DNA from: a virus
Virus record (IMG/VR): IMGVR_UViG_3300017788_003124
Location: 1-47,253 of that record
DNA length: 47,253 nucleotides
Direction: 5' to 3' (one strand)
The notes below the pieces were generated by a model. It had not been told where the DNA came from. It saw only the letters and a program-made list of their open reading frames with translations, and did not search any database. The translations under genes were made by a program, and so were the position numbers. Shown here piece after piece: positions 8,484-47,253 of this stretch; the stretch's first letter is position 1; every line of letters starts with the position of its first letter.

Positions 8484-8496
8484 CTAGGGTTTAAAA

Positions 8497-24550: not shown

Positions 24551-24913
24551 GTGAATATTGATCCAGTTAAGTACACGCTTATCGCTTGGCAGGGTAAGAC
24601 GTTCGAAAAAACTTTCTATCTGAAAGATTCAGATGATAATATCATTCTTTTAGATGGATATACTGGCCGTATGCAAGTTAGGCCATCCATTGAGTCTGAG
24701 GAAGTTATTTTTGATCTTGATGAAATTAATGGTGGTATCATCATCAATGATGACGATGGTTCGGTTACTATTTATATTTCTGACGAGGACACGGAGGTTG
24801 TTGAGGTAGGGACTTACAAGTATGATTTGGAGCTTGTCTCTGCGGGTGGAAGAGTTTATTGTCCTATTTATGGCTCTTTTAAGGTTAAGGGTGAGGTAAC
24901 GAGAAGTGCCTAG
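24551..24913 (+). CDS. Structural adaptor protein of the fibre module
   Basis: A 120-residue protein. The start is a GTG at 24551, one base after the previous TGA, with GGGAGGCG upstream. It carries a pattern widespread in phage tail proteins: [20 protein letters not shown], then [27 protein letters not shown] and [14 protein letters not shown]. This pattern typically forms a beta-domain at the base of a tail fibre or baseplate. It overlaps the fibre gene by 8 bases. It most likely anchors the collagen-like fibre. The longer frame upstream (24473) is a shadow of the previous gene. Confidence 0.65.
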
Positions 24914-27035
24914 TTTTATTCAGGGCGATGAGCCAACTATTCTGGTTACCGCAAGTGATGAAGATTCTGCGGTTATTGTTGTCGGGCAGCAAGGTCCGGA
25001 GGGTTCGCAAGGCACTACTGGACCCACTGGCCCTCAGGGGCCTACAGGCGCTTTTGGGGCTACCGGATCTACTGGACCCCAAGGCTCCACTGGCGCTGGC
25101 GTAACTGGCGCTACAGGCCCGCAGGGTGAAACTGGCGTTACGGGCATTATGGGCGCTACCGGCCCCAGCGGTGCGACCGGAGCGACCGGCGCGTCTGGCG
25201 CTTCTGGCGCGTCTGGCGCGTCTGGTGTAATTGGTGCGTCTGGCGCAACAGGGGCTACAGGACCCGCTGGCCCCTCGGGTGGTGGTCAGCGGGCCGAGTC
25301 GGTCGCTACCGTCACTGACCCGTTCACTATCACCAGCGAGAGCTTTGTCGTGACCTTGGGCGCTGCGGTCACGATGCCCGACGCCGAGGACAATGCCGGT
25401 CAACTCGTCAGCATCGCTGCAGCGGCGCAGACAGTCACGATCACCGCTGCGGGGACCGACACCTTCCTTGGATACGGTGCCACCTACACCCTGAACGCCG
25501 GTGAGGCTTCGCAGTGGTTGTCCGTTGAGGTCGGTGGATCGTGGAGCTGGGGTCTGGCAAACCTAGAGAAGCCTGAAGTGACAGAGCCGGGTGAGCGGGC
25601 ATGGCTTGCCGACGCACTCGGCGACGAGCTGGACACGACGACCGCACCTTGGCTGCGCTGCTTTCCGACTGCGGCCAGCATGGACGGTGACTACGGCGGT
25701 GCGTGGCAGATCACGAACGCTGGCAACGCCTCGGGCACTTTGCCTGCCACACCGGACGGCATCGACATTCGGGCCAAGTTCTACCTGCACCGACCCTACG
25801 AGGACGACGAGTTGGCGGGCAGCGGACAGGACTGGCCCTACCAGCGGTACCGGGAGATCCTCACACAGACCAAGGCGGCTGCGACTGGCGGCGACCTGAC
25901 CGAGTGGGCGATCCTCCATCCAGACGACACCTATCCGGGGCTGTCTGAGGGCATCGCTGCGTGGTTCTACGAATCAACCTTGACCGGGGCCGCAGGCGAG
26001 GGAGCAGGCTTCTTCCACGACGACGGCAGCCGCCTCATCGGTGTACCGCTCATCGCACGCCTCACGCACGACACCGCCACCGAGACTGTCACCCAATGGC
26101 GCTGGGTACCTTACGACACCGGAGCGACCGGCATTGAGCAGACCGCTGACGGCTACTGGTGGGAGCCAGTCAAGTCGGAAACCGACGCTCGGTTCGCCAG
26201 CATGGACCCGAACGGCAGCGAAACATGGAAGATCGGCATTCAGAACCGCATGGACGTGGCGTGGATGACAGTCCACGAGTTCGGCGGGGCCAAGATCCTC
26301 GACATCCAGCCCTCGCACATCGCCTCTGCGGGCGTCGGTGCGACGAGCTTCACCGATGGCGTCGGCAACACCATCTCCACGACCGACGGCAGCATCGCCA
26401 TCCCGCAAGGACTGTCGGCAGCGAAGATCACCAGCGGCACGGTCGCCACCGCACGCCTCGGCACCGGCACCGCCAACAGCACGACGTTCCTCCGTGGAGA
26501 TCAGACCTACCAGAGCATCGCTCGTCCACCGTCGCTGCTCGTGTCAGGCCAATACACGTCAGCTTCATCGGTGTCCACCGGCAACGCCAGTGTCACCAGC
26601 AACCGGCTCTACTACCAGCCGATCTTCATTCCTCGGACAGTCACGATCGACCGAATCGGCGTGAATCACGCTGCAACGATCGCTGGGGTAGGCAGCGTGA
26701 TGCGGCTCGGGATCTACAACGCCACGAATGATCTCCCATCGACCCGCCTGTTGGACGCTGGGACGGTGGATCTGACGACCACTGCTGCCTTGAAGACCAT
26801 CATCATCAGTCAGCAGCTCACACCGGGCCTCTACTGGCTTGCTGCGGTCGGTCAGATCACGTCTGGCGCTCCGACGTTCAACACCGGCAGTCCGACGTTC
26901 AACGTGCCCGATTTGACATCGACGTTCACCGGCGTCAAGTTCGAGGCTGGCGTCACCGGGACGTTGCCAGCAACGGCAACACCGGGCACAGCTAACACCA
27001 CTCAGCCGCCGCTAGTCTTTCTAAGGGTTGTATAA
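24906..27035 (+). CDS. Collagen-like tail or head fibre protein
   Basis: A 709-residue fibre, GTG start at 24906. Residues about 27-127 are Gly-X-Y collagen repeats ([19 protein letters not shown]...), rich in Thr, which form a triple helix. A beta-rich shaft follows ([32 protein letters not shown]), then a 200-residue middle with Trp-rich segments ([13 protein letters not shown]), a repeat-like spike section ending LRGDQTYQS, and a beta-rich C-terminal head ([20 protein letters not shown]) that may bind the host. From about 25270 on, the DNA is far more GC-rich (41 of 60 bases at 25801-25860) than the flanks (18 of 60 at 28381-28440), a sign of recent acquisition. The Thr/Ser-rich repeats are a possible glycosylation target of the sugar cassette; this is speculation. 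Confidence 0.85.
25270..27030 (+). other. GC-rich island inside the fibre gene
   Basis: This stretch keeps GC near 60-68% with C and G in third positions (GAC, GTC, ACC, GGC), while the genes on both sides use T and A. It starts after the collagen repeat and ends with the fibre gene; the next small gene is intermediate in composition. It looks like a fibre body taken from a high-GC phage or host by recombination at the collagen repeats. Confidence 0.75.
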
Positions 27036-31274: not shown

Positions 31275-34200
31275 ATGGCTGATCAGTTTTTGATTAACGT
31301 CAAGCTTAGGGTTGATGATTCTGATTTGAAGCGTGTTGATCGCGAGAATCAGAAGAGAATTCAGCAGGCCAACAAGTCAGCTGCCCAGTCTAGAACCCCT
31401 ATTCCTCAGGCACCTAATCAGGCTCAGGTTGCTGCTGCGTTACCTCAGGTGGGGCAGGTTTCAACTATTGTTGCCCGCTATGGGCAGGCTGCTGCTACGG
31501 AAATGCAGGTTGTCGCTCAGCAGATGCGTAAGCTGGGCGGGCAGCTACCTGATTTGCAGCGTGCCCAGCAGAGGTATTTGAAGCAGTTTACTTCTTCGAT
31601 CGAAAATTTTCAGATTTTACCGAGGAATGTTCAAGCTGATATTAGTCGTAGATTTACTCGTGCGTTTGAGAAGACTGCAGCAGAGTTTGAGGCTGCTATT
31701 GCGAATGCTGTTCCTTCTCGTCGTAATGCTGTTGTTCGTGATGTTGCTAATTCTAATTATGCTGCTATTGGGGTTCCGCAGCGTGTTGGGATTACGACGC
31801 CTGCTCAGATTTCCGGTAATACTACTACTGGTCCTACTTCTGTTGCTAACAAAAATTTAGTTGCTGCTATTAATGCTAGTAGTAAGCAGATTCGTGATGC
31901 TACTTCTGTTAACGCTTCTTTGGATAGGGCTTTGGCTGACGCTAAGAGGCGTCAGATTGCGGCGATTAATGCGGCTACTTCAGCGGTAAAAGCGGGTGGC
32001 CCTTCGGGGCCGGTTAGGGGTTCTGGGGCGAGCGTTCCTTTTGCTCCTACGGTAACGAGAACTAGTGCTGTTTCTCAGCCTGCTCAAATTCAGCCTTCTG
32101 TTCCTATTGTTATCTCTGCTGTTCCTCAGAGGCCCGTAGCGGCTCCTCCTTCGCAGTCTGGCACTTCTTATGTTCCTTTGGTTACGGCTCCAGTTCAGAG
32201 TGGGCCTGTTCGTCAGCCTGTTCGTCAGCCTGTTCGTCAGCCTGATGTTATTCCACCTGATGTTTTTATGGGCGGCGGTGGTCGTCGTGGTCGTGGAATT
32301 CCTAACGTTGGAACGACTCGTAGACGGCAGGAACGTCAGGCCAGCATGGTGGGTCAGGGTGGTTATGTAAGAAATTTTGTTGGGAATGTGGTTGATCGGT
32401 TTAGGGACCGTAATCAGCGTGGGGCTGTTGGTTCTGGGGATGATCCGCTTTATCACGGAACAGCCATTGACCCCAATCTGCCATTCCCAACTCAGATTCA
32501 GCCAGCAGCAAAATATGGACGCCCCACAAACTTCGGCGCTTCCGATCCTTCATTTGCCTATCTGACTCCTAACCTCCGTGATGCCCAATACTATGCTGAA
32601 CTTGTAGCATCAAATCGTGGCGGGTTCCCTTCTGTTTTGCAAGTAAAGCCCACTGGTCCTGTAGAGAAAGATCCTAGTACGGATCCCAATGGAATCCGTA
32701 GAGGAAACTTTGACAGTGATTTAAGAACTCGTAGTTCTCTTAAAGTCTTGGGCAAGCTTCCAAATGCTGACGAAGCAGAGTGGCTAGAGTCGAACCAAGA
32801 GGCTGCCTATCGACGTAATCGGCAGCAATACCTTGAATTGGAGCGGCGTCTAGGCCAGGGTGGGTTTATCCGTCCGGGGGAGATGCTGGGGGGTGCTCGC
32901 GATAGGTTAACTGGCGGTTTTGCTCGTTTGCGTAACCGTTTCCGTCGCCCCCAAACTGTTGCAGCCAATTCCTCTAGCGGAGCGCCCAATCCCTTAGCCG
33001 ATTTTCTTTCTTATAGTTTCTTGGAATCCCAGATGATCGAGGACCTTACTCCACGCTCGCAGGGTGGGCGCGCTCTAGGACGACGGAACCGTCGTCGTCA
33101 AGGGATGCCGTTTGATCGTGATGCGGCGTTACAGAGACAGCTTGAAAGATCGCAATTTGGTGAGATGTATGGGGGACCCCCTCAAGGCGATGGTCGTCCT
33201 CCCCCCTCCTTCCTGCGGCGGTTAATCCAACAGTACACCAATCGCGGCCTCACTCCTCCCGTAGACCTGAATCGAATACCATCAACTGGTCCAGGTGCTA
33301 GACGTTTCGAGACCAGCCAGTTTGAGAAAAGAATCAAGGCTCGCGTAAGGATGTCTGCTGGAACAGACATCACCGGGGAAACCCAATACGCCAATCTCCC
33401 TATGCCATTTTCAAGGGATGGTAGGCTGAGTAGCAACGCTGGCGATATGAGTCGGATACGTCCCGCTATTGGGGCATTAAAAAGGCTTCGGTCTGTTTTC
33501 CCTGAAATTCCAATTAATTCTGTTACTTTTGAAGATTTAGGTGGGAAGGGAAGGATTGGCACAGCTAGCACCCGCTGGAAATCGCTTGGTTTTAACGGTT
33601 CTTCAAACATAGCATTAGATCCGCTTGCCTTCGGGACTGCGGCGAACCCGTTGTCGTCTGGGCTGGAACGGCGGCTGGTGGGTCCCAAGCTTGCAAATGC
33701 TGCTGTCCATGAATGGGGCCATCTTTTAGATAGAGAATCTCAGACAGGTTATCTGAAATCAAGACCAGATTTATCTCCCGGCGGCCGACCGCGCGCACCT
33801 TATGTATTTGCTCAAGTTCCAGGATACACAAATGAAATAAATAAGATTATTGAATCTGCTGGGGTTATGCCGAATTTCTTCAGCGAAAAACCTATGGTTG
33901 GAGTGGGAACAGGTTATCTTTCTGGTGGTGAGCTTTCTAATATCACTAATCTTCCTGATGATGTTGAAAACATTAGGAGGCTTGCTCTTAGAAATAAGGG
34001 AAAAACTCGTGGACAAATTGTTGATCTTTATGGTCAACAGAGAAAATCGATTGGGTTACCTTTTGATGCTAGCTCTGTAAAGGATGAGCTTGATGCAGCT
34101 ATCAGATCTGGTCAATGGTTTGACCCATCGGGAGGCGGCGCCGGGGAAGTAAAACCTTTTAAATATAAAGATGTTGCAAGAAGAAAATCTGATGACCCTC

Positions 34201-37200
34201 GTTTTGTTCCCGGATTTAGGGAAAGATATGGTCAACTTACTAAGTCTAGACAAATTTTATCTAAACTTGTTAGTGGATATGGAGCTACTAGCGCAACAGA
34301 ATTAGTTCCTGAGGCTGTTAGTAGAAGACTTTTTGGCGATCAAGGTTCTTTGGTTGGTAGGATCAGCGATTTTGTTGCCCGTAATGCTGGTATAGATCCT
34401 CAGCGGTTATCTAGTTTTAATTCTGCACAGCTTAGAGCCCAGATAAGGGCTGGCTCCACCGATGGTGGTGTTGTTGGGTTGCGTCTTTCTGATTTTGTGA
34501 AAAGCAAGGCCGTTAGGGCTAAAGACTTATTAGGGGAACTTAAAGCCCGGAGTAGTTCTCGCAGGCGTTCACTGAAACAAACTGCTGGAGCTTCTGACCA
34601 GATCCCTCCCCCAACCCAGCTTGGGGGGAGCATCCCTCCAGCGCTTGGACCTTTAGAGTTGGAGAGGGAAACTCCTTCTACTCGCAGGCAGCGTGAAGCT
34701 GAAGAGGCGGCGGCTGAGAGGCGTCGTTTACGCCGAGAGGCTGCGAGACAAAGATTGGAAACTGCTGGAGCTGGAAGCGGTTCTGGTTCCACTGCTATAC
34801 CTTTAGGTCCGACTCCACCACCACCAACCCCACTAGAGTTGGAGAGGGAAACTCCTTCTACTCGCAGGCAGCGTGAAGCTGAAGAGGCGGCAGCTGAAAG
34901 GCGTCGTCAAAGAAGACGTTCTGCTGCTGGTCGTAAAGGCGCTGCTGCTCGGGGTCGTGGTCCTAGCGGTCAACCGATCTCTATGGGTAAAGCTTACGCT
35001 CCCGGTGCTGGGGCTGAAGTTAACAAGTATTTAGATGATCTTGGTATCAGCGCTTCTCAGCGAGCACGTTTTTGGGGTGGTAGATCCTACCAGGATCCGT
35101 TTGGTGGTCGCGAGTTAAGCGGTCAAGATTTACGTCGCGAAGTTGACCGTCAGGTCGGTAGAGGGGTATTCACTGGTTCTCCAGAAGAGATGGCTGCTTC
35201 TCGCACAAGGCAGGGCGGCTATGCAGCTCAAGCTGCTGTTCGTAGAAGAAGGCTTGCTACGGGATCTCAGATCGGTGCTTTGGAAACGAATTTTGGTAAT
35301 TTGTCTGCAACAAATAAGCAAGTTGATGCTTTGAAACGCAATAATGATCTTGCTGGGTTGCGTAGTTTGGAGCAGAACTTTGGTCGCTTAAAAAGAGAAG
35401 CTGAAAAGATTAAAGTTGATGCTATTAGCAGAGGCGATCTTGAGGAAGCTTCTAGGCTTGAAAAGATTTTGGATCGTATTGACAATAGGGTTTCTAGAGT
35501 TAGCGATGCCGCCCGTATTGTTCAGGGCAGGGTTAGTCCGACAACGACAACTACTCGTTCCTCTGCCGGTCCTGCCGGTCCTGCCGGTCCTGCCGGTCCT
35601 GCCGGTACTGCCGGTCCTGCGGTTCCTCTTACTGTTGCTGATAGAATTAAATCTATTAGGCCCACTGGCTTGTCTTTGACAAAGGGAAATATTGATCAAT
35701 TTAAAGCGGCTGGTGACGAGGCTGGATTAAGGAGCTTTGAGAGGCAGTTAGGAATTTTGGCTGCTAAGGCTAGATTAATACGTCTTGATGTTGTTGATCC
35801 CGCAGATAAAAATCAGTTAGATGCAGTTGAAAGTAAAATTTTAAGATTAATTGCTTTAACTAAGCAAGCTAGAATTAGTGTAAGTACACCTGCTGCTACT
35901 GCTGCTGCTGCTCCTGGGGTTTCTGCTTCTGAACGTTTGAAGGCTAGATTTTCAACGATATCATCAAGATATCCGGCAACGGTGGGGAGCATTGACAATT
36001 TAGGTAAGTCTGCTTTGCAAGGTGGATCTATTGGGCAACAGGCTGCTGCACAGCTGACTTCTTTGAGGGGGGCGCTTTCAACTTTACTTATTTTAGCTGA
36101 CAGGATTAAAGTTAATGCTGTTGATGCTAAGGACGAAGCTGAAGTAAACAAGCTGATCGCCAAGTACCAAGCCCTTTACCAGAGGGTTCAGCAGGTTAAC
36201 AATGCTGTTGCTGCCGGTGGCGGCGTTGGCGGTCGAGCGCGTGGTGGCGCTGGCGGCCGCGGTGGCGCTGGTGGCGCTGGTGGCGCTGGCGGTGGTGGTG
36301 GTGGCGGCGCTGGCGGCGCTGGCGGTGCTGGCGCTGGACCAAATAATCTAATTAGTGGTATCCGAGGCTTGGACTCTAATAGCCTTGGCGGCTTCTTCGG
36401 CGGTGGCCTTCTTTCCACTTTGCGATACTCTTTGCCGTCAGTGTTGCTTTTTGGGGCAGCAAGCGGTATTTCGCAAAGTATTAGAGAAGCGGAACAGCTT
36501 TCCTTCGAGCTAAAAAAGATCGAATCACAGTTTGAAGCAACTTTTGGTGCTTCAGCTCAAGAGAAACTGGATTCGTTTAGAACAACAATTTTGAGTGTCG
36601 CTAGAGAAACTGGTTTAAGCGCTGCTGAGATTGGTCAGTTCGGTCAGCAGCTTTCTGCGTTGTACAGCTCTGGCGATATTTCTGTCGGTGAGTTGTCTGG
36701 CCTTCCTTTAGCTGAAGCTCAGACTCGTTCTGGCGCTCAGCTTGCTCAAACTGTTGGTTTGCCTTTGCGTGAGATTACGGATGGTTTGACTGCGGCTTCG
36801 TTGGCGTTCGGCGCAAGTTTTGAAGAGATTGGCGATATTGCAATTGCTCTTGAGCAGAAGTCTGGTGTGCTAGCTAAGGAAACTATTGCTTTTGTTGGTG
36901 ATATCGCTCCAGTTGCTCAAGAGGCTGGTTTCTCTATTGAAGAGTTTACTTCTTTGGCTGCTATCGCTCAGCAGCGTTCTGGTCGTTCTGGTGCTGCTCT
37001 GGCTGAGCAGTTTGGCCGTATTCTCCCTGCTATCAATCAGAATAGACAGGCGCTGTTAGAACTTGCTGTAACAAATTCTAGTCTTGGGACTCCCGAGTTT
37101 GTTAGTGCTATTAATAATTCTGATACTAAAGGTATTCTTTTTGGCATCGGAAAAGCGTTTAATGGGTTAAATAAAGAATCGAAAGATTTTATTATCAATC

Positions 37201-40200
37201 TTTTGGGTGGACGTAGAGAGGCTGCTGCTTTACTTCCTGCTTTAACTAATCCGGAGCTTCTTGAAAGCTTTACTCAGGCTGCTGAGGATAGTGCTGGATT
37301 GCTTGAGGAGAGATTTGCCGCTGTTCAACAGACGTTACGTAACACGTTCCAGCGTTTGGGTGAAACGGTTCGCCAGCTTGGTTTGGAGATTTTAGAATCT
37401 GGTTTAGATTCGTTCTTGAGTAGTGTTGCTGATACTTTTAGCGTTATTGCCACTGGTGTTGGTGGGGCTATTAAACTTATTGGAATGTTCAACCAGATTC
37501 TTGGTGGTCTTCCTGGCAAAATTTTACTTGCTGCTGTTGCTTGGCGTGTTTTAACTAAGGGATTTGCTCTTGGTAGGGCTGGTGTTGGAGCTTTGCTTCC
37601 CGGTTTTGCCGGTTTCGGTGGAAATGCTCGTTCTGGTTTTGGTTTTGGTTCCGCTGCCAGAATGGCGACAGGGAGACTCTCTCCTTTTGAAATGAGAAGA
37701 TATCAGCAAGGTGCTGCTGTTGTTGGGGCATTGACAGGACGGCCGGTTCCTCCACCCCCACCCCGCCGAGGTACGATGCGTCAAAGATTGGGCCAGCTTG
37801 GCGGTTTTGAATCTGCCAGACAGGCTTATGCAACTGGTTCACAAGGTCTTGTTGCCCGAGGATTAACAAACTTGTCTCCACTTTATGGAGCATTGCCAAA
37901 ACAAACAAGACTTACAGCGAGAGAGGTTTATGGTCAGAGAACTGCTGGAATGCAGCCTTTCAGACAGGTTTTTAGAGCCGGATTACAGCCATTTACGGAA
38001 AACTTGAGTGTAAGAGGTTTAGGGGGTGCTGCCGATAATGCAAGAACAAGATTGGGGGCTATTGGGGCTGCAGGTTTACAGGGGGCCAGTAATCTAAGGG
38101 CTGGTGCTGGGTCTGCCGCTGGCGCTTTGGCGCGCAATGCTTTGCTTGCCGGTCAGGTAGGTTTGTCTGGTGCTAAAACTGCGGCGATTGGTGCTGCTGC
38201 CGGGGCTAAGGCTTTGGGTAGCGGGGTTGCTGGGTTGTTTGGTGGTCCAGCTGGTCTGGCATTTGTAGGTTTAGCTGTTGCATATGGATTGATGCAAGAT
38301 GGTGTCCGTAAGCAGCAGGAAAAACTTGACGAGTTAAGAGCTTTTGCTGAAGATACGAATACTTCAATTGCAGAACTTCAACAAAAGGCTCAGGATTTAA
38401 GAAACAAAGCTAGTGGAGCAAGTTTAGGATCTAGACTTAATGCTTTTATTTTCGGTGGTCCAGCTCCTTTGTCAGAATCCGAATATGCATCTTCTTTGGT
38501 TGCAACAAGAGTTGCTCAGGATCTAGATGATGAAGAAGCAAAGATTATTTCAATACTTTCTGAACGGGCTGATGCTGTAAGAACGATCGCTGGAATTAAT
38601 TTACAGGGAGATTTAAATAATAAACGTAGAATTAGTGGTCTGGGATCTGGTCAGAGAATTCCTTTTGGGTCTGATACAGGCAAACTTGATTTTGTGCCTT
38701 ATACTACATCTGGACCAAACATTTCAAGTAACCCCTTTGATTTTATTGGAGCAGCTTTAGGTCTAAACTCGGAGCAGGGGGCAAGGGCGGAGGATCTATC
38801 TGCGGCAGCAGTTATCGATCCGGTAACTAGAGAGTTTGAGGGCGACTTCGATGTAAAGAAATTTTATCTAAATCGTTTTGGTGATAAAGATGTAGTTAAA
38901 AAGCTTGGGGATAACAAAGCTTTTGAATTAGAAAAATTATATGCTGAGAGAGGTGAAGAATTAGCTATAGCCGGTCGGGATACGTTTAATAAGGCAGCAG
39001 AGTTGATTGGTGTTCAAACCAATGATCTCTATACAGTCGTTGGTGAGGCTTTCTTTACTGAAAATCCGCTTGCTCGGCTTGAAGAAATTATTGCAAATAA
39101 AGAAAATAAGTATGGTGCCGAAATTATAGAACAGGCTACTAAAGCGAGAGACACTATTGTTAGTAAGGGTAAAAATGATCCTCAAGTTAGGGCTATTCTA
39201 GAGGCTAATGGTCTTCTTGATATAGCAGCGCAAGAAAGTCTTGCTACTTTAGAAAAGCTTCAGAAAGATCTTGGTCTTGGCAAAATTTCTGAGGCAACTT
39301 ATCTTAAGGGATTGCAGACGTTAAGAGCGGAAATTGTTAATAAAATAAAAGAAAGTACTGGAGATAAAAAGCTTCTATATGAGCAGCTTTTAACTGTCGA
39401 TAAAGCAATTAATGAAGCTGTAGCTAGTTTAGCTAAGCAATCTTTAGATTCGCTTGTCAAAATTTTAGATCTGACTCAGACTCCATCTTTGTCAACTTCT
39501 CTTCAAAAAGCGGCAGCAATACAGAGAGGTATAAATTCTGGGTTAAAGGGAAATGAATTAAAAGAGGCTGCGTTTAATTTAATTGAAAACCAAAAACAGA
39601 TAGCTTCACAGTTAATAGAGAGCGCATCTTCAAGTGAGGAAGCTCAAAGAATTGCTAGTACTCCAGTTGAAATACCTTTAGTGGCTAGACAGGCTGCAGT
39701 TCGTGGTCAGATTCAGACTTTGATTGGTGATCTTCCTGGATTTGCTGAAGACTGGCAGCGGCTCTTTGGGGAAACTTTTGACGACTTTTTGAATGGAATT
39801 GTTGAAGGTCTTTCCACTGGCGCTTTGACCGTGAGTGATGTTGTTGCAATTTTGGAAGAGCGCAAGGCGTCTTTGCAGAGGGGTGGCTATGTAGAAGGCC
39901 CTAAGGGTACGAAAAGACTTGATCCAGATAAATATGCGCCTGAAGTTGAAGATATTGATGAAATCATTCGGCAAATCCAGGAAACAGGTCAGCTACCTGG
40001 AGATGTTGGTAAGTATTTAAGCCCCACTCAACAAGTTCAGGCTCTTGCGGAAAGAAATTCAGCTGATTCAGTTTTAGCCCAGTCTAGAGCTGGGAGAAAT
40101 CAACGTAAAAGAGCGGAGATTGCTTTAAATGAAGCTGCTTTAAACTTCGAAAATGCAAAAAAGACTCTACCTAAAGAGTCTAATGAATACAAGAGAATTG

Positions 40201-41444
40201 AAGCAGCATATAACGAGGCTTATCTAAATGTTGTTGATGCTATTCAGGCAGAGTCAGCTGGTTTATTTAGTGTAGCTAAAGCTATCGCTCAAGTTAATCG
40301 TGACCCGATTGCCGCAGCACAAGCCGACCTTGATCAGGCCAAAGCAGATTTTGCGGCGGCTAGTCAAACCGGCGACGTGCAGGGTATGCGAGACGCTGAG
40401 AGCAGGCAGATACTTGCTGTAGGGCAGATTAGAGATTCTAGACTTAATCAAACAAAAGTTTTCCTTGAGGCTTTGAAAGCTTCTGCGGGAACTGATCTTC
40501 TTGGGCCTTTAAGTAAGGGTCTTTCAAAAGATCCTCTTGATCAAGCCCAGTATGATGTTAATATTGCTAGATATAATTTGGATACTGCGGTTGGTTTTGA
40601 GGAAAGAATGCAGGCGGTTATTCAGCTTGCTGGAGCTTTGGAACGTCAAGACCAAGCGATTTTGGATAGGAAGCGCGCCCAGCTTGAGTTGGATAAAGCT
40701 TTAATTCAGGATCCCGTTCGACAGGGTGAGCTTGATTTAGCTTTTGCTCGTGAAGTGCTGTCTAGGGCTGACACAGAGTTGGAGAAAATTGAAGCTCAAA
40801 AAAATATTATTGATATTCAAAAACAGATTACTGAGGCGATGAATGAGGCTAGGTATGCCCAGTTTAATTTGAGGCAGGCTGAACTTGAGGCTATGGGTGA
40901 TGATGTTGGGGCTGCTCAGGTGGCTGCTTCTCTTGCTCGTCAACAGCTTGCTGACGCTATTTCTGCGGGTAAGGGTAGTGCTGAAATCGACAATTTGAAG
41001 GCTGCTTCTGCGACTGCTGACAAGGCTGCTAGGGATGCTGTTTTCCAGAATCGTCAGGATGATTACAAGTTCCTTCTTGATATGGGTGAAATTACGCAGT
41101 CACAGTATGCCGATTATCTTGAAGGCTTGAAGACCACTCTCATCCCTGGAACTAAACAGTTCAGAGATCTTGAGGTTACAATTAAACAGCTTCGAGACGA
41201 TATAGGTGGTAATCTACAGGCAAACCTCCCAACAAGTCTTCAGCTTCCAACTTTGTATGAGGTGAGAAGGTTGAACCAGATGGGTCAAGGTGCGGCCCCG
41301 GGTCAAGGGATAGGTTATCAAGATAACAGGAACGTTGAGGTGACGGTTTACGTCAATAATGGGATGACTGAAGAGCAGGTTGTTGGTACACTCAGTAAGG
41401 CGATGAACGTCGGAACAACAGGCTTAGAGTCTCGAAGGTACTAA
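31275..41444 (+). CDS. Giant tape measure protein with ADP-ribosyltransferase and metallopeptidase domains
   Basis: The 3389-residue protein sets tail length and is normally held in the tail lumen. Order: a helical N-terminus (1-200), Pro/Gln-rich linkers, an Arr-like ADP-ribosyltransferase domain (390-505), a basic linker, a zincin-like domain (about 725-1022), repeated charged linkers (about 1127-1211), a short collagen-like AGP repeat (about 1430-1450), a long Gly-rich linker (about 1645-1690) and then a TP901-type tape measure core (about 1747-2030, LKKIESQFEATFGASAQEKL). Hydrophobic stretches lie at about 1710, 2078 and 2327. The rest is long alpha-helix. ATG 31275 follows GAGG. If the helical part packs at about 1.5 A per residue, the tail would be several hundred nanometres. 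The tape measure call is firm; the enzyme domains are described separately. Confidence 0.93.
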   Translation: MADQFLINVKLRVDDSDLKRVDRENQKRIQQANKSAAQSRTPIPQAPNQAQVAAALPQVGQVSTIVARYGQAAATEMQVVAQQMRKLGGQLPDLQRAQQRYLKQFTSSIENFQILPRNVQADISRRFTRAFEKTAAEFEAAIANAVPSRRNAVVRDVANSNYAAIGVPQRVGITTPAQISGNTTTGPTSVANKNLVAAINASSKQIRDATSVNASLDRALADAKRRQIAAINAATSAVKAGGPSGPVRGSGASVPFAPTVTRTSAVSQPAQIQPSVPIVISAVPQRPVAAPPSQSGTSYVPLVTAPVQSGPVRQPVRQPVRQPDVIPPDVFMGGGGRRGRGIPNVGTTRRRQERQASMVGQGGYVRNFVGNVVDRFRDRNQRGAVGSGDDPLYHGTAIDPNLPFPTQIQPAAKYGRPTNFGASDPSFAYLTPNLRDAQYYAELVASNRGGFPSVLQVKPTGPVEKDPSTDPNGIRRGNFDSDLRTRSSLKVLGKLPNADEAEWLESNQEAAYRRNRQQYLELERRLGQGGFIRPGEMLGGARDRLTGGFARLRNRFRRPQTVAANSSSGAPNPLADFLSYSFLESQMIEDLTPRSQGGRALGRRNRRRQGMPFDRDAALQRQLERSQFGEMYGGPPQGDGRPPPSFLRRLIQQYTNRGLTPPVDLNRIPSTGPGARRFETSQFEKRIKARVRMSAGTDITGETQYANLPMPFSRDGRLSSNAGDMSRIRPAIGALKRLRSVFPEIPINSVTFEDLGGKGRIGTASTRWKSLGFNGSSNIALDPLAFGTAANPLSSGLERRLVGPKLANAAVHEWGHLLDRESQTGYLKSRPDLSPGGRPRAPYVFAQVPGYTNEINKIIESAGVMPNFFSEKPMVGVGTGYLSGGELSNITNLPDDVENIRRLALRNKGKTRGQIVDLYGQQRKSIGLPFDASSVKDELDAAIRSGQWFDPSGGGAGEVKPFKYKDVARRKSDDPRFVPGFRERYGQLTKSRQILSKLVSGYGATSATELVPEAVSRRLFGDQGSLVGRISDFVARNAGIDPQRLSSFNSAQLRAQIRAGSTDGGVVGLRLSDFVKSKAVRAKDLLGELKARSSSRRRSLKQTAGASDQIPPPTQLGGSIPPALGPLELERETPSTRRQREAEEAAAERRRLRREAARQRLETAGAGSGSGSTAIPLGPTPPPPTPLELERETPSTRRQREAEEAAAERRRQRRRSAAGRKGAAARGRGPSGQPISMGKAYAPGAGAEVNKYLDDLGISASQRARFWGGRSYQDPFGGRELSGQDLRREVDRQVGRGVFTGSPEEMAASRTRQGGYAAQAAVRRRRLATGSQIGALETNFGNLSATNKQVDALKRNNDLAGLRSLEQNFGRLKREAEKIKVDAISRGDLEEASRLEKILDRIDNRVSRVSDAARIVQGRVSPTTTTTRSSAGPAGPAGPAGPAGTAGPAVPLTVADRIKSIRPTGLSLTKGNIDQFKAAGDEAGLRSFERQLGILAAKARLIRLDVVDPADKNQLDAVESKILRLIALTKQARISVSTPAATAAAAPGVSASERLKARFSTISSRYPATVGSIDNLGKSALQGGSIGQQAAAQLTSLRGALSTLLILADRIKVNAVDAKDEAEVNKLIAKYQALYQRVQQVNNAVAAGGGVGGRARGGAGGRGGAGGAGGAGGGGGGGAGGAGGAGAGPNNLISGIRGLDSNSLGGFFGGGLLSTLRYSLPSVLLFGAASGISQSIREAEQLSFELKKIESQFEATFGASAQEKLDSFRTTILSVARETGLSAAEIGQFGQQLSALYSSGDISVGELSGLPLAEAQTRSGAQLAQTVGLPLREITDGLTAASLAFGASFEEIGDIAIALEQKSGVLAKETIAFVGDIAPVAQEAGFSIEEFTSLAAIAQQRSGRSGAALAEQFGRILPAINQNRQALLELAVTNSSLGTPEFVSAINNSDTKGILFGIGKAFNGLNKESKDFIINLLGGRREAAALLPALTNPELLESFTQAAEDSAGLLEERFAAVQQTLRNTFQRLGETVRQLGLEILESGLDSFLSSVADTFSVIATGVGGAIKLIGMFNQILGGLPGKILLAAVAWRVLTKGFALGRAGVGALLPGFAGFGGNARSGFGFGSAARMATGRLSPFEMRRYQQGAAVVGALTGRPVPPPPPRRGTMRQRLGQLGGFESARQAYATGSQGLVARGLTNLSPLYGALPKQTRLTAREVYGQRTAGMQPFRQVFRAGLQPFTENLSVRGLGGAADNARTRLGAIGAAGLQGASNLRAGAGSAAGALARNALLAGQVGLSGAKTAAIGAAAGAKALGSGVAGLFGGPAGLAFVGLAVAYGLMQDGVRKQQEKLDELRAFAEDTNTSIAELQQKAQDLRNKASGASLGSRLNAFIFGGPAPLSESEYASSLVATRVAQDLDDEEAKIISILSERADAVRTIAGINLQGDLNNKRRISGLGSGQRIPFGSDTGKLDFVPYTTSGPNISSNPFDFIGAALGLNSEQGARAEDLSAAAVIDPVTREFEGDFDVKKFYLNRFGDKDVVKKLGDNKAFELEKLYAERGEELAIAGRDTFNKAAELIGVQTNDLYTVVGEAFFTENPLARLEEIIANKENKYGAEIIEQATKARDTIVSKGKNDPQVRAILEANGLLDIAAQESLATLEKLQKDLGLGKISEATYLKGLQTLRAEIVNKIKESTGDKKLLYEQLLTVDKAINEAVASLAKQSLDSLVKILDLTQTPSLSTSLQKAAAIQRGINSGLKGNELKEAAFNLIENQKQIASQLIESASSSEEAQRIASTPVEIPLVARQAAVRGQIQTLIGDLPGFAEDWQRLFGETFDDFLNGIVEGLSTGALTVSDVVAILEERKASLQRGGYVEGPKGTKRLDPDKYAPEVEDIDEIIRQIQETGQLPGDVGKYLSPTQQVQALAERNSADSVLAQSRAGRNQRKRAEIALNEAALNFENAKKTLPKESNEYKRIEAAYNEAYLNVVDAIQAESAGLFSVAKAIAQVNRDPIAAAQADLDQAKADFAAASQTGDVQGMRDAESRQILAVGQIRDSRLNQTKVFLEALKASAGTDLLGPLSKGLSKDPLDQAQYDVNIARYNLDTAVGFEERMQAVIQLAGALERQDQAILDRKRAQLELDKALIQDPVRQGELDLAFAREVLSRADTELEKIEAQKNIIDIQKQITEAMNEARYAQFNLRQAELEAMGDDVGAAQVAASLARQQLADAISAGKGSAEIDNLKAASATADKAARDAVFQNRQDDYKFLLDMGEITQSQYADYLEGLKTTLIPGTKQFRDLEVTIKQLRDDIGGNLQANLPTSLQLPTLYEVRRLNQMGQGAAPGQGIGYQDNRNVEVTVYVNNGMTEEQVVGTLSKAMNVGTTGLESRRY
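32205..32240 (+). repeat. Three tandem 12-bp repeats (PVRQ) in the tape measure gene
   Basis: CCTGTTCGTCAG occurs three times in a row and encodes PVRQ three times in the linker before the ADP-ribosyltransferase domain. It is short and perfect, so it may vary in copy number. Confidence 0.9.
32442..32789 (+). other. Arr-like ADP-ribosyltransferase domain in the tape measure protein
   Basis: Residues 390-505 match the rifampin ADP-ribosyltransferase (Arr) pattern: LYHGT with H394, SNFG-like NFGASDPSFAYLTPNL with Y429, an A-x-x-YAELVAS helix, VLQVKPTGPVEKDP with D466, then a Thr-Arg-Ser stretch (DLRTRSSLKVLGKL) where Arr has RTREPVWIVGEL. The H-Y-D triad spacing (35 and 37 residues) is close to Arr of Mycobacterium smegmatis (H19, Y49, D84 as I recall them). 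Codons here use more C and A in third position than the flanking T-rich codons. Target is unknown; Arr itself modifies rifampin. Confidence 0.82.
33447..34341 (+). other. Zincin-like metallopeptidase domain in the tape measure protein
   Basis: NAAVHEWGHLLDRES carries the zinc-binding HExxH (H812, E813, H816). About 200 residues later GATSATELVPEAVSRRLFG (E1009, E1013) resembles the E-x3-EA segment that supplies a third ligand in phage and effector zincins. The part before HEWGH (FEDLGGKGRIGTAS, ALDPLAFG) reads as the usual beta-sheet edge. The substrate could be a cell-envelope or virion protein, or the tape measure protein itself. Confidence 0.7.
34654..34907 (+). repeat. 74-bp direct repeat pair in the tape measure gene
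   Basis: 34654-34727 and 34834-34907 are exactly 180 bases apart and differ at only two positions, with the first 58 bases identical. They encode the charged helical motif LELERETPSTRRQREAEEAA. This is a recent duplication within a linker, likely by slippage or unequal recombination. Confidence 0.9.
35562..35624 (+). repeat. Tandem 9-bp repeats (collagen-like AGP) in the tape measure gene
   Basis: CCTGCCGGT and near copies repeat about seven times and encode Ala-Gly-Pro triplets. Nine-base perfect repeats in this linker invite copy-number change. Confidence 0.88.
36205..36340 (+). repeat. Gly/Ala-rich low-complexity linker in the tape measure gene
   Basis: GGTGGCGCT-type units encode a long run of Gly with Ala and Arg at about residues 1645-1690. 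It separates the enzyme-bearing N-terminal half from the tape measure core, so it may be a flexible hinge or a processing site. Confidence 0.85.
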
Positions 41445-41454
41445 GGGGAATATC

Positions 41455-41841
41455 ATGCCTAGGATAGCATGGACTTTTTATGATCCTGTAGAGGATGAAA
41501 CATACAATTGGGAGATCAACCCTAATCAGGGTGGCTATCCTAGTCGAAATAAAAATATTCTTTTTGAGGCTACCGCTGCACCTAACGGTCAGACTGTGGC
41601 TCAGGAAGGTAGGGATACCCCTGAAACGTTTTCTTTCTCTGGGGTTATTTTAACTGAGGGCCAGTTTAATACTTTAAACTCTTGGTATGAGAAGCGTAAT
41701 CAGATTCTCTTAACCGATGATCTTGGCCGACAGTTTTGGATTTATATTAAAACGTTTAATCCGACGCGTCAGCGTTCAGGCAAGTATCCTTGGCGACATG
41801 ATTATACTATTGATGCGATTATTTTGGATTTTTCGTCATGA
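41455..41841 (+). CDS. Distal tail-type protein
   Basis: A 128-residue protein right after the tape measure gene (AGGGGA before ATG). It is beta-rich with a central FSFSGVILTEGQFNTLNSWY stretch and ends SGKYPWRHDYTIDAIILDF, patterns seen in short distal-tail or minor tail proteins that sit on the tube end. The next gene starts within its stop codon (ATGA). A Dit-like role is inferred from position and size. Confidence 0.68.
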   Translation: MPRIAWTFYDPVEDETYNWEINPNQGGYPSRNKNILFEATAAPNGQTVAQEGRDTPETFSFSGVILTEGQFNTLNSWYEKRNQILLTDDLGRQFWIYIKTFNPTRQRSGKYPWRHDYTIDAIILDFSS

Positions 41842-44800
41842 AACTTAATTCCAACATTTTTAATACAGTCCGTTCGGGTGTTATGGTTGGGGACACTAAG
41901 CCGTGTGGCCGTGTGACGGTTGAGCCTGACTGGTTTTTGCAGTCCACGCCTCCTGTGTGGGATGGTTCGATTCGGGGACCATTCAGATATTATCAAGATT
42001 TGTCGAACCCAGGTCTTGAGATTGAGGTGCCGAACATCAAGTCAATCAACATTGAACGTTCCCTTTCTCAAGATATTGCTACCTGCAGTATAGCTATTTA
42101 CAATCAGTGGCATGACTCTAATGATCCGTCTGCTCCGATTCCGATGTCCCCAGAGCTTGCGACCCAGCTTGGCAAACCCGGATATTTTTGGCCTCAGCGT
42201 GGCGAATCCGCTGAATCTCAAGAGTTATGGAATCAAGAACCTGGCCAAGGGGCCTACGAGAAGGATGGAACATATGATCCATCGTTTGATTGGACAAACG
42301 TTATTGTTCCCAATGCTTTGATTAGAACATATCAGGGATATGGCGGTTCTGATATTTCTGTGGAACAGGCAGTGAATAACGACAATATTATGCTTACTGG
42401 TGTTTGGTTGATCGATAGAATCACAGCTGGCACAGATGGAATTCTGACAGTTGAATGTCGCGATGTTGGCAGGCTCCTGCTAGAGCAGTTGACTTTTCCA
42501 CCGCTTGTTCCTAATGCCATATATCCATTAGAGTATGTGCCAGCAGGTACATCTATATTCGATTCAACTTTTTCTCCCACCCCAAGGTCTGCTGGTATAA
42601 GTCCAGCATCTTTTGGTGAAGCTAGATTATTATACTATAATTCTTCCACAGATGTTCTCCTTGGAGGGTCTAGCGTAAATGGTCCAGGTAATAATACTGG
42701 AGTTTTTGGAAATAAGGGCAGCTATGCCTCAGATGGCAATTACGAAACCTTTGCTCTCTCTCCAGCAGTTGAAGAACCAATGGATTCTGATGGATATTTT
42801 TGGTGGGAATTTGCCTTAGAGAAACCTGGTGGTTCAGGAAGAAAGATTCAAGGGGTTACATTTCTGCCGTGGGCAGGTGGATACACTGCATATATATCTG
42901 TTAAAAGATCCGGTTCTTGGCTCGGAAGCGATTCAGTTCCTGGCGGTCTTAGTCCAAAAACTTACATTAAGAAAATTAATGTTCCATTAAGAATTCCTGA
43001 TGGAAACGAAAAAGAAATTGATGTTGATTTCGGGCAGCCAGTGGAAGCTGATTATATTAGAATAACGTTAGCTCCTCCAATGTATTATTCTGGACAGGCT
43101 GATGGTTCCGGCAATCGGTATCGATGTGGAATTAAAAATATTTATGCTAGAGCTATAGGCGCAAACGCCCCTTCATACAACAGTTTAACAATTGATCAAC
43201 CTTGGTCTTTTGCTATGGCATCACATCCGGTTAGAGGATACTGGGTATGCGAAAGTAACGGATATGTGCATGGGTTTGGTGACGCAAGCAATTATGATTC
43301 TAGTGGTTTTGGTCCTGTAATTTTTGAACAGCCACCTCTTGAACCAGTTTATATTGCAATTGATGGAGTTTGGACAAAAAGATATCTTAATAGAATTCCA
43401 GATGGCGCCTATCCTAGCCCTGTGGCTGTTGACATGGCTGCCCATCCTTCTGGTGAAGGATATTGGATTTTAGATAATACCGGACGTGTTTATAACTATG
43501 GAATAGCTCAACTTCATTTAGGTTATCATCCTGGATTTAACTCGGCATTTCCTCCATATAACAGACTTCCAGATTGGATTTATTATGTAAAAGTACCTTG
43601 GTATGGTGAACTTTTTGCTGGGTTGGCAGTAACAGCAATGTCTATTGCTGCAACCCATACAGGAAATGGATATTGGGTTGTTTATTCGGATGGGTCAGTT
43701 AGAGGTTTTGGTGATGCTGTAATTAATGGTAGCTATGTTTGGCAAACTCCAAGAACAGCAGTGACTAATGCAAAGATAAATGAAAGAGTTTCTCTTACCC
43801 CAATTTTCTATCACAACCCAGATGGATCACATAATTTCCCTGGTGGCTCTCCGAGAGGAAATGCTGATGTTTTTGGTTTCAGGATTGCTGGCAGGGCTTC
43901 AAATGAGGAGATGTACGGATATTACAACAACTCTAGAAGAGGCACGGCGATTGCCGCACACCCTTATAAGACTGGATTTTGGGTTTCAGATGGCTCTGGC
44001 CAAGTTTGGGGTTATGGAGATGTTCAATATTATGGTCAATTAGAAAATCGTGTATACAATCAAACTTCTTCAACCTCTTTTAGGCTCGGTGGGTCAGATT
44101 TTCCGCATGGGATGTGTGCAACTAAAACAGGAAAAGGTTATTGGTTGTGTTTCGCTTCCGGAAAAATTGCAGCATTTGGGGATGCCGTAGATCAAGGAAC
44201 TCATGATATCTATTTAAATAATCCAGCTATTGATTTCACAATTCCAGCTGAAAAAAACCAGGACTGGTCATTTTTTAGATATCTTATTTGGGATATAGAC
44301 AGAGACCCTGATGGAAGCGGTTTTTGGGTCCAAGTCGCTAATGGTGATGTTAAAAGCTACAATAGCAAGGATTGGGGCAGGCCGGGATATTGGGGAAAGT
44401 CTGGTTATCGCTGGACTCAGGGCAACTATCAAGAGTACAGTGATATTGTAAAAGATCTTTTGGCTTGGTCTGGTTTTACTTCTTACGATGACTCTGTTGA
44501 TGAAACCATTAAAAGATGGAATGGCAGCAATGCCGCAGTGCTGAATTCTGGACAAAGTTACACTGTTGGTGACTATACTTTAACTATGGATGCTGGCGGT
44601 GACCTAATTTTGCGTGAAGATGCTACTATTGTTTGGCGTTCTAACCAATCTTTTGTTGGAACATATTCTGGAACTGTTGCTGGTTCGCGACTTTTGATGC
44701 AAGCTGATGGAAACTTGGTGATCTACACTTCTTCGGGTGTTCCTAAGTTTGATACCGGAACTTTCAACAACCCTGGCTCATATCTAATTTTAAGAGATGA

Positions 44801-45803
44801 TGGGCACCTTTCGGTGGTTTCTCGTGGCGGCTCAGATCTTGTTGTTCTTCATAGGGGGTCACCTAACGCATATGATAGACCTGGAATATATGGCAATGTT
44901 GAATCAACGGGAATTTATACTGACAAAAGGATTCCTGGGGATAAGTTTGATAAGAGAACTGTTTTAGATTGCATTAATGAAATAAAGCAGGTTGTTGGAT
45001 ATAACGTTTATGTAGATCAAGATGGTAGAGTCCATTTTGAATCACCAAACTGGTGGAGTGCCGGTAACTTTGACGATGACGGTTTAAGAATATATGTCAC
45101 ATATGACGAAGAAGGTAACTTCACTAGAGTAAACGAGGGCACGGCTGGATCTGAGCCGTTCATTCCTGAGATAAATGAAGCGGTTTCTTTGACAAACTAC
45201 AGTTCAACACTTGATGGCGACTCTTTAAGGTCGCAGATCATCATCGGATCCGATGTGCCAGATGAAGATAACCCATCCGCTACTTCTTATATTAAATATA
45301 ATCCAGCTTCTGCTACTGACGAAATTAGACCGGGCGTTCCTGCTTTAAGAAATATTGTTCGTCCAGCTGTTTGGATTGATAATACGTTTACTAATAAAGA
45401 TGAGCAGCGTATTATGGCAGAGTTAATAAATCTTCAAATTTGGTTTAGTCAAAGAACGGGGTCAATAACATGTGTTGCAAATCCGAATTTTTCTATAAAT
45501 GATCAGATTAGAATTTTAGAAAGAAATACTAGTGAAACATATATTCACTATATTAGATCTATTTCATCTTCGATGGATTTAGATTCAGGTCAGTATGTTA
45601 TGAATTTGACAACAAATTGGTTAGGAGATTCTGATAATTGGGTTATTACTGGTTCTAATATATATAATCCAATTAGCAATATTTCTATTTCCGAAAAAGT
45701 TGATAGGTGGCAAAAGGTTACTGGTAGAAATCTTGTCTTTACTGGGACGGGAACACGTCAGCCAGTATTTACTGGAAGTTTGGGATCTAAGGTTACGTTA
45801 TGA
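41838..45803 (+). CDS. Large tail-tip protein with discoidin-like, propeller and lectin domains
   Basis: A 1321-residue tip protein. The N-terminal 230 residues (GLEIEVPNIKSINIERSLSQ, ITAGTDGILTVECRDVGRLL) and the C-terminal 290 (TVLDCINEIKQVVGYNVYVD, WFSQRTGSITCVANPNFSIN) read as two halves of a tail hub that has been split by long inserts. The inserts are a galactose-binding (F5/8 type C-like) domain (about 250-445), six propeller repeats (about 456-845) and a bulb-type lectin domain (about 900-1005). All are sugar-binding or surface-binding modules, so this is the likely receptor-binding protein. It overlaps the genes on both sides by 4 bases (ATGA). The domain order is visible; the exact receptor is not. 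Confidence 0.82.
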   Translation: MKLNSNIFNTVRSGVMVGDTKPCGRVTVEPDWFLQSTPPVWDGSIRGPFRYYQDLSNPGLEIEVPNIKSINIERSLSQDIATCSIAIYNQWHDSNDPSAPIPMSPELATQLGKPGYFWPQRGESAESQELWNQEPGQGAYEKDGTYDPSFDWTNVIVPNALIRTYQGYGGSDISVEQAVNNDNIMLTGVWLIDRITAGTDGILTVECRDVGRLLLEQLTFPPLVPNAIYPLEYVPAGTSIFDSTFSPTPRSAGISPASFGEARLLYYNSSTDVLLGGSSVNGPGNNTGVFGNKGSYASDGNYETFALSPAVEEPMDSDGYFWWEFALEKPGGSGRKIQGVTFLPWAGGYTAYISVKRSGSWLGSDSVPGGLSPKTYIKKINVPLRIPDGNEKEIDVDFGQPVEADYIRITLAPPMYYSGQADGSGNRYRCGIKNIYARAIGANAPSYNSLTIDQPWSFAMASHPVRGYWVCESNGYVHGFGDASNYDSSGFGPVIFEQPPLEPVYIAIDGVWTKRYLNRIPDGAYPSPVAVDMAAHPSGEGYWILDNTGRVYNYGIAQLHLGYHPGFNSAFPPYNRLPDWIYYVKVPWYGELFAGLAVTAMSIAATHTGNGYWVVYSDGSVRGFGDAVINGSYVWQTPRTAVTNAKINERVSLTPIFYHNPDGSHNFPGGSPRGNADVFGFRIAGRASNEEMYGYYNNSRRGTAIAAHPYKTGFWVSDGSGQVWGYGDVQYYGQLENRVYNQTSSTSFRLGGSDFPHGMCATKTGKGYWLCFASGKIAAFGDAVDQGTHDIYLNNPAIDFTIPAEKNQDWSFFRYLIWDIDRDPDGSGFWVQVANGDVKSYNSKDWGRPGYWGKSGYRWTQGNYQEYSDIVKDLLAWSGFTSYDDSVDETIKRWNGSNAAVLNSGQSYTVGDYTLTMDAGGDLILREDATIVWRSNQSFVGTYSGTVAGSRLLMQADGNLVIYTSSGVPKFDTGTFNNPGSYLILRDDGHLSVVSRGGSDLVVLHRGSPNAYDRPGIYGNVESTGIYTDKRIPGDKFDKRTVLDCINEIKQVVGYNVYVDQDGRVHFESPNWWSAGNFDDDGLRIYVTYDEEGNFTRVNEGTAGSEPFIPEINEAVSLTNYSSTLDGDSLRSQIIIGSDVPDEDNPSATSYIKYNPASATDEIRPGVPALRNIVRPAVWIDNTFTNKDEQRIMAELINLQIWFSQRTGSITCVANPNFSINDQIRILERNTSETYIHYIRSISSSMDLDSGQYVMNLTTNWLGDSDNWVITGSNIYNPISNISISEKVDRWQKVTGRNLVFTGTGTRQPVFTGSLGSKVTL
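42588..43172 (+). other. Galactose-binding (discoidin-like) domain in the tail-tip protein
   Basis: About residues 250-445. GSYASDGNYETFAL, then WWEFALEKPGGSGRKIQGVT and a late FGQPVEADYIRITLA give the strand order of an F5/8 type C-like beta-sandwich, which binds carbohydrate or surface ligands. The match is by pattern only. Confidence 0.6.
43195..44380 (+). repeat. Six propeller-type repeats in the tail-tip protein
   Basis: Copies at about residues 467, 541, 611, 713, 767 and 827 share the pattern GYW-5-6 residues-G-x-V-x-x-FGDA (for example GYWVVYSDGSVRGFGDA and GYWLCFASGKIAAFGDA). Such repeats are frequent in actinobacterial secreted proteins and build a beta-propeller. Six copies suit one closed ring. 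Confidence 0.75.
44533..44850 (+). other. Bulb-type (mannose-specific) lectin domain in the tail-tip protein
   Basis: About residues 900-1005. The sugar-binding signature Q-x-D-x-N-x-V-x-Y is complete at Q955, D957, N959, V961 and Y963 (LLMQADGNLVIYTSSG). A second partial copy is seen at YTLTMDAGGDLILREDAT and a third at YLILRDDGHLSVVSRGG. The family binds mannose-type sugars. Confidence 0.85.
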
Positions 45804-47253
45804 GCGATCAATCACCAGATGTTGGCATATCTTTATCGTATGACAATCTCGCAAATCTACCGAATATTTTAAGTCCAAAAGTTTATATAGATTTCACAAA
45901 CTTGCCTGTAACGGGACTTCCAGCCACCCCACCCAATACTACGGATAGTTTATCTTTCCATGATATTTATAGATTCAATGAACCACTTTTTGGCAGCACT
46001 ATCGTTGCGCTCACTTGGGACTCTTCTTACGATAAACAACTGCTCTATTTCGAAGAAAATAAAATTGGATTTATGGGAGGCTTCTCATTAACATCACAGG
46101 GTTTTTATTGTAAATCATTCTTTACTCCTCCGCTCGATCCTGACATTTGGGAAGTTTCTCTAGCATTCGTAGATTTTTTTATTACAGAGAACGATAGTTA
46201 TCCTGGCGCTTATCCTGATGGCTATGTTGGAGAGGGGATATGGGCAGTTTTTAGTAGCGAAACCCAAACTATGCAGATAAGATATCTAGACCAAGCTCAA
46301 GATGTGCAAGTTCTTGGATCCGCAAAATTCTCTCTTCAAAATACGGCAGGAAATCCAGTAGAAATAGGTTTTCAATGGGATGGATTTAAATCATTCAAAG
46401 CATATTATGGCAATAATTCAATAATAGCTAGAAGTGATATATCTGACTCTTTTGGCTCGGGACTATTTTATCCTGTCGCTACCATAGATTCTATCGTGGC
46501 ACCAGGTCCAGGCCCAATCACTGGGGGTATGGACTCTCTTGAATTTGGATGTTCAATTGGGTTTAATAATACAAATCCGTCCGGCCCAGAGCGTGGTGTA
46601 ACATTGGGTAATATATCTACTTCTGATTATGTAAATCTTGAAACTGTAGATCAAAATTCGTTTACTTCAACTGTTAGAAGTGTTGGACTGGACCCAGTGT
46701 TTACTTTGGATACCTGCCCTCCGGAATACTGTAATCCAGCTGGCGACGTTGAAGAAGGTAGTGTTAGGGTTGGGGTATTTTCAGGGGATGAATTAAAATT
46801 TGAGGAGCCTATTTGTGAATACTTGAGGTCCGACTTTTTCGAAGGAGGACTTTACGGTTACTATAGTAATGGTGATAAAATTAGAATTGTAGAATCAAGT
46901 TTGGGTGATAAGTATTTGGTATCAAGAAATCTTGATACTGGTCAATTCAATTTTATTCAGGTGATCGATGGTGAAATTGGCAACAATGGAGTTTATCATC
47001 AATATGTTCCAGGAGATATGGTCGATTTTGACTGGTTTAATGATAGGCTTTGGATTTGTGGCCAAGATTCGGGATACTCAATTAGGTCTTTTTCGGAAGC
47101 ATCTGATTATATAAGTGCAGACATTAATATTGCCAACCCTTCTACATGTAACTCAATTGCGTACCATCAGGAAAGCAATTCTTTTTACGCATCTTACCCC
47201 GAAGATGATGCGATCATACAGTATGATGCTGATGATGGATCTGTGCTGGATAC
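45800..47253 (+). CDS. Tail protein, incomplete at the window end
   Basis: This frame starts at ATG 45800 inside the previous stop (ATGA) and stays open to the last base, 484 codons so far. It begins MSDQSPDVGISLSYDNLANL. The rest is beta-rich, with IGFMGGFSLTSQGFYCKSFF near residue 95 and paired cysteines (TCPPEYCNP) at about residue 310. The late segments (FDWFNDRLWICGQDSGYSIR, then NSIAYHQESNSFYASYPEDD) look like propeller blades. It is probably another tail-tip or fibre protein; a part of the sequence is missing, so no family is named. Confidence 0.75.
   Translation, partial: MSDQSPDVGISLSYDNLANLPNILSPKVYIDFTNLPVTGLPATPPNTTDSLSFHDIYRFNEPLFGSTIVALTWDSSYDKQLLYFEENKIGFMGGFSLTSQGFYCKSFFTPPLDPDIWEVSLAFVDFFITENDSYPGAYPDGYVGEGIWAVFSSETQTMQIRYLDQAQDVQVLGSAKFSLQNTAGNPVEIGFQWDGFKSFKAYYGNNSIIARSDISDSFGSGLFYPVATIDSIVAPGPGPITGGMDSLEFGCSIGFNNTNPSGPERGVTLGNISTSDYVNLETVDQNSFTSTVRSVGLDPVFTLDTCPPEYCNPAGDVEEGSVRVGVFSGDELKFEEPICEYLRSDFFEGGLYGYYSNGDKIRIVESSLGDKYLVSRNLDTGQFNFIQVIDGEIGNNGVYHQYVPGDMVDFDWFNDRLWICGQDSGYSIRSFSEASDYISADINIANPSTCNSIAYHQESNSFYASYPEDDAIIQYDADDGSVLD

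Follow-up and report, generated by a model that had tools for sequence, protein, structure and literature searches.

In siphophages, the tail tip genes usually follow the order tape measure, distal tail protein and hub (PMC7291167). In evolved Tal and Dit proteins, carbohydrate-binding modules (CBMs) are carried in loops of the conserved Dit or gp27-like hub (PMC7291167). Actinophage hubs, as described in mycobacteriophages, are trimers that lie under a hexameric distal tail ring (PMC13252515). The baseplates of the mycobacteriophages Douge and Corndog bear sugar-binding folds, one of which is similar to a mannoside-binding lectin (PMC13033339, PMC13252515). In Douge, glycan-binding baseplate domains bind fragments of mycobacterial LAM/AM, and adsorption is slower on a strain that lacks capsular arabinomannan (PMC13033339).

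Bulb-type lectins are best known from plants and some bacteria. Garlic agglutinin (1kj1) and the M. smegmatis MSMEG_3662 lectin (4oit) share the beta-prism II fold and a QxDxNxVxY sugar site, and a mycobacterial lectin of the bulb-type fold has been solved with mannose (PMC8875947). In the bacteriocins pyocin L1 and putidacin L1, the same motif prefers D-rhamnose over D-mannose and binds with millimolar affinity (PMC3916391).

Here, we describe a phage tail hub with a bulb-type lectin. The window is a 47,253-base IMG/VR virus record, which may be incomplete. It encodes a 1321-residue protein that is a decorated ('evolved') tail hub and in this respect of a known kind; its bulb-lectin variant is unreported in the literature searched, where we found no earlier account of a bulb lectin in a phage tail. 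As in evolved Tal and Dit proteins, the modules sit in loops of a conserved hub, but here they comprise a discoidin-like domain, a beta-propeller and a bulb-type lectin, and the hosts are probably Actinobacteria. The Douge and Corndog baseplates are comparable as actinophage tail tips with sugar-binding folds; their described binding domains, however, are on BppU and central fibre proteins rather than in hub loops, and the lectin fold is different. Among phage records, the hub matched only Caudovirales GX15bay (MK557849), which has the same hub, discoidin-like domain and six-bladed propeller. Unlike the window protein, it lacks the lectin, carries a second, C-terminal propeller and is annotated as GH25.

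A tail hub downstream of the tape measure gene

The hub gene (41838..45803; + strand, as are all features of the tail tip given below) is an intact open reading frame, whose ATG overlaps the stop codon of the preceding gene (41455..41841). The latter encodes a 128-residue protein without a PHROG match, which we name Dit-like from its position; a homolog immediately precedes the hub gene in each of the 49 loci examined. The gene at 31275..41444 is assigned to the tape measure protein (3389 residues) by size and position, and relatives of it precede the hub in 33 loci. This is the usual siphophage order of tape measure, distal tail protein and hub, which supports the identity of the hub.

The 1321-residue protein had no match in Pfam, and its matches to tail and baseplate hubs in PHROG were weak. 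A truncated model of the hub matched baseplate hub proteins in BFVD, a set of viral predicted structures, at E=9e-5 and 6e-4. Together with the tape measure and Dit-like genes upstream, these matches agree with the original prediction of a hub-like tail-tip protein. The protein belongs to a family of more than 40 relatives, and the hub proper is formed by an N-terminal part (residues 1-233; 41838..42536; family profile E=2e-93) and a C-terminal part (residues 1018-1270; 44889..45647; E=5e-107), with PHROG tail and baseplate hub matches among the family members. A search of genome contigs with the hub gave no match.

Elsewhere in the window, a probable large terminase gene (12828-16616) is interrupted at two places by insertions of the intein/homing endonuclease type (Pfam Intein_splicing, LAGLIDADG_3 and Hint_2; PHROG terminase matches). 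The regions 56-2959 and 6115-10861 encode a sigma-70 factor, a B12-dependent ribonucleotide reductase, glycosyltransferases and a nucleotide-sugar epimerase.

A discoidin-like domain and a six-bladed propeller

Residues 1-1105 were modelled with AlphaFold2 from an alignment of 42 sequences, from which GX15bay and viral lectin fragments, which aligned wrongly, were left out. The mean pLDDT of the model was 71.5. Values reached about 85-95 over the core of the discoidin-like domain (residues 340-440), 80-94 in the majority of blade cores and 55-80 across most of the lectin. Confidence in the lectin and in the inter-domain arrangement is moderate. Structure prediction had been proposed earlier as a check on the modules, and the model indeed recovered beta-prism II lectin, propeller and jelly-roll folds.

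The first module (residues 235-447; 42540..43178; family profile E=8e-57) has no match in Pfam, no sequence match in the PDB and none outside the hub family. In Foldseek searches, the jelly-roll matches of the model were IFT25 (TM 0.70-0.72) and the CBM32 of NanJ (2v72; E=8e-5); the Foldseek output came without residue ranges, and we assigned these matches to the domain by alignment length and secondary structure. We therefore term the predicted fold discoidin-like and do not place the domain as a member of the discoidin family (F5/8C, CBM32). The original prediction had read it as an interruption of a hub-like protein. The jelly-roll fold agrees with the discoidin-like assignment, but the domain is no special insertion of this protein: it is near-universal in the hub family, being absent from L011, L012 and L017, while L137 gave no match to it.

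The second module (residues 459-843; 43212..44366) consists of exactly six blades, as foreseen from the sequence. A blade profile to which the window, L004, L006 and L007 did not contribute matched it at E=1.6e-49 and found no blade in any of 200 shuffles, and WD40-type propellers ranked next after bulb lectins when the model was searched against the PDB with Foldseek. Propellers of 5-12 blades occur in 14 tabulated hub proteins; plasmids gave no match to the propeller. The original prediction also suggested that the repeats may have been taken from a host; a scan of genome contigs for the propeller found none, but its patterns were so specific that this result carries no weight with regard to hosts. 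The wide distribution of both modules speaks for a rival reading, in which the discoidin-like domain and the propeller would bind the receptor proper, through mimicry of or contact with propeller proteins of the host surface, and the lectin would only stabilise the contact. We consider this division of labour unlikely.

A bulb-type lectin with one intact sugar site

The third module follows the hub helix (GNYQEYSDIVKDLLAWSGF region; residues 862-882; 44421..44483), which is conserved among relatives whether or not they have the lectin. The 117-residue domain (residues 896-1012; 44523..44873) matched PDB sequences by phmmer at E=1e-10 (1dlp) and 2.5e-8 (garlic agglutinin). The top Foldseek match of the model in the PDB was garlic mannose-specific agglutinin (1kj1; E=7.5e-7, TM 0.76), and Gastrodia bulb lectins were matched with an rmsd of 2.3-2.9 (2.7 for 1xd5). 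Among viral predicted structures, the model also matched bulb lectins of giant viruses. The Pfam B_lectin threshold was not reached by the window protein.

The sugar site QADGNLVIY (residues 955-963; 44700..44726) can be read directly from the translation, and the residues named for it previously (Q955, D957, N959, V961, Y963) are exact. The bare motif arose in 16 of 20,000 shuffles of the protein; a chance motif was rejected as an explanation because similarity extends over the full domain and its fold. Sequence similarity, predicted fold and one complete site thus place the domain among the bulb-type (beta-prism II) lectins.

The nearest NCBIfam profile for all three lectins found in the hub family (window, L004 and L006) is of the putidacin type. 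It matched the window lectin at E=4.5e-15, yet with 55.8 bits against a curated cut-off of 275 and over positions 146-235 of 274 only. A lectin-like bacteriocin was rejected on these grounds: in contrast to putidacin L1 and pyocin L1, the window protein has a single lectin domain instead of tandem domains over the full profile, scores far below the family cut-off and is not a free bacteriocin. Searched against phage records, the lectin gave only weak matches to Pseudomonas phages. Several virus contigs without the hub (L030, L032, L034, L076 and others) encode large proteins with many bulb-lectin sites.

The window lectin differs from monocot-type lectins in being embedded in a phage hub and in having only one of its three sub-sites complete; the other two are degenerate. 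Some bulb-lectin relatives, such as curculin and neoculin, do not bind sugar. Both are among the sequence and fold matches of the window lectin, and with two sub-sites lost the domain might likewise have become a structural or protein-binding module of the baseplate. We regard this as quite improbable: the window retains one complete site, L004 likewise one and L006 two, so that the site stays conserved whereas the remainder of the lectin diverges. The originally proposed ligand, mannose in a glycan such as lipomannan, is a candidate with partial support, in view of the degenerate sub-sites and of the preference of the motif for D-rhamnose in the pyocin and putidacin lectins.

Distribution of the modules in the hub family

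Relatives were collected in two steps, initially GX15bay and 15 IMG/VR loci, and subsequently more than 30 further hub loci via hub profiles. Among the tabulated hub family, the lectin is limited to the window, L004 (whose protein is also encoded in L005) and L006. The lectin of the window and of L004 occupies a 137-residue loop that is bounded by the hub helix on one side and by a conserved YGNxE-type motif on the other; the corresponding loop of 12 relatives measures about 8-22 residues. At the level of sequence, the lectin of these two proteins is a clean insertion into a hub loop.

The L006 lectin occupies another hub loop, and the lectins most similar to it come from unrelated virus contigs. 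In the hub tree, the window groups with L004 (support 0.99), and L006 groups with L103 and L104 (support 1.00), neither of which has a lectin. Two loops in separate hub clades make two independent lectin gains the simplest account, although the two groups are united by a weakly supported branch (0.23).

Other loops and ends of the hub carry further modules. L149 has four LysM domains in a hub loop (residues 547-755 of the hub ORF; Pfam LysM E=2.3e-21). In L111, a 181-residue insert (residues 974-1154) lies in the same loop as the L006 lectin but is distinct from it, and L010 has an insert within the N-terminal hub part. L007 and L103 end in GDSL/SGNH hydrolase domains, which possibly act on wall glycans.

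An intein-like insertion (CVDIDTEIL...) interrupts the hub behind GNY in L008 (about 9150-10050) and in L105 (from 3869); the hub sequence then continues in a different frame, following ...YITGN|TDYSDIV. A split intein, two genes and a frameshift are all candidates for this arrangement.

Divergence of the lectin and the host

The lectin is the least conserved of the parts compared between the window and its nearest hub, L004. Identity is 76% for the small gene upstream, 72% and 75% for the N-terminal and C-terminal hub parts, 60% for the discoidin-like domain and 61% for the propeller, but 38% for the lectin (Fisher p=4e-5 versus the propeller and 3e-12 versus the hub). Chance is an unlikely cause of this difference. 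Rapid divergence of the lectin, or its replacement by a homologous one, would fit a role in recognition; relaxed constraint would look alike, but the QxDxNxVxY site is retained in all three hub lectins, which argues against simple decay.

This pattern also bears on the question of whether the lectin is the main determinant of binding. The window encodes other candidate adhesion proteins, namely a collagen-like tail fibre (24906-27035), which matches many tail-fibre PHROGs, and a truncated gene directly after the hub (45800-47253). If one of these were the main receptor-binding protein, the lectin would be a secondary adhesion aid, comparable to the CBMs on evolved Dits, which recognise the same host as the true receptor-binding protein with lower affinity (PMC7291167). 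The lack of the lectin in most of the hub family agrees with such an auxiliary role, whereas its greater divergence with the sugar site kept suggests importance for specificity. We judge the auxiliary role to be a serious possibility, at slightly below even odds.

The original prediction had placed the host among the Actinobacteria. WhiB is taxonomically restricted to this group and serves as an actinophage marker (PMC6802176). Of 17 related records, 6 carry it, and the nearest lineage, L005, is one of them; within the control set, it matched Corynebacterium glutamicum only. Actinobacterial hosts are therefore likely for the related viruses, and the window virus, in which searches for WhiB and for tRNAs found none, probably infects Actinobacteria as well, as judged from its relatives.

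A decorated hub as a proposed platform for host recognition

Taken together, we propose that the protein is a decorated tail hub with binding modules in its surface loops, in which a predicted manno-sugar lectin holds the tail tip and adjusts the host range. We assign this reading a probability of about 0.7. By analogy with mycobacteriophage baseplates, the hub would form a trimer. Its surface loops would carry the common discoidin/CBM32-like domain and the six-bladed propeller and, in a separate loop after the hub helix, the lectin. The sugar bound by the lectin may be manno-configured, either D-mannose or D-rhamnose, and located in the wall or capsule of the host. Useful avidity would require each tail to bear several lectin copies, and the three copies of a hub trimer could compensate for the weakness of a single site. 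Together with the other modules, the lectin would keep the tip of the tail attached to the cell until the hub opens, and gain, loss and change of the lectin would then adjust the host range.

With its exchangeable modules, the tail hub has the appearance of a platform for selecting hosts. We tentatively extend this idea to a widespread family of hubs in uncultured actinophages, which might act as a loop-grafting platform with at least two gains of bulb lectins at different loops, each followed by faster change; the hub rather than the tail fibres would then set the host range through its swappable modules. We hold this wider view to be somewhat less likely than not.

Receptors for phages of uncultured Actinobacteria are largely unknown, and a hub with a recognisable sugar site offers a testable class of ligands, the manno-configured glycans. 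The relatives with and without each module form a natural series on how a tail tip acquires specificity.
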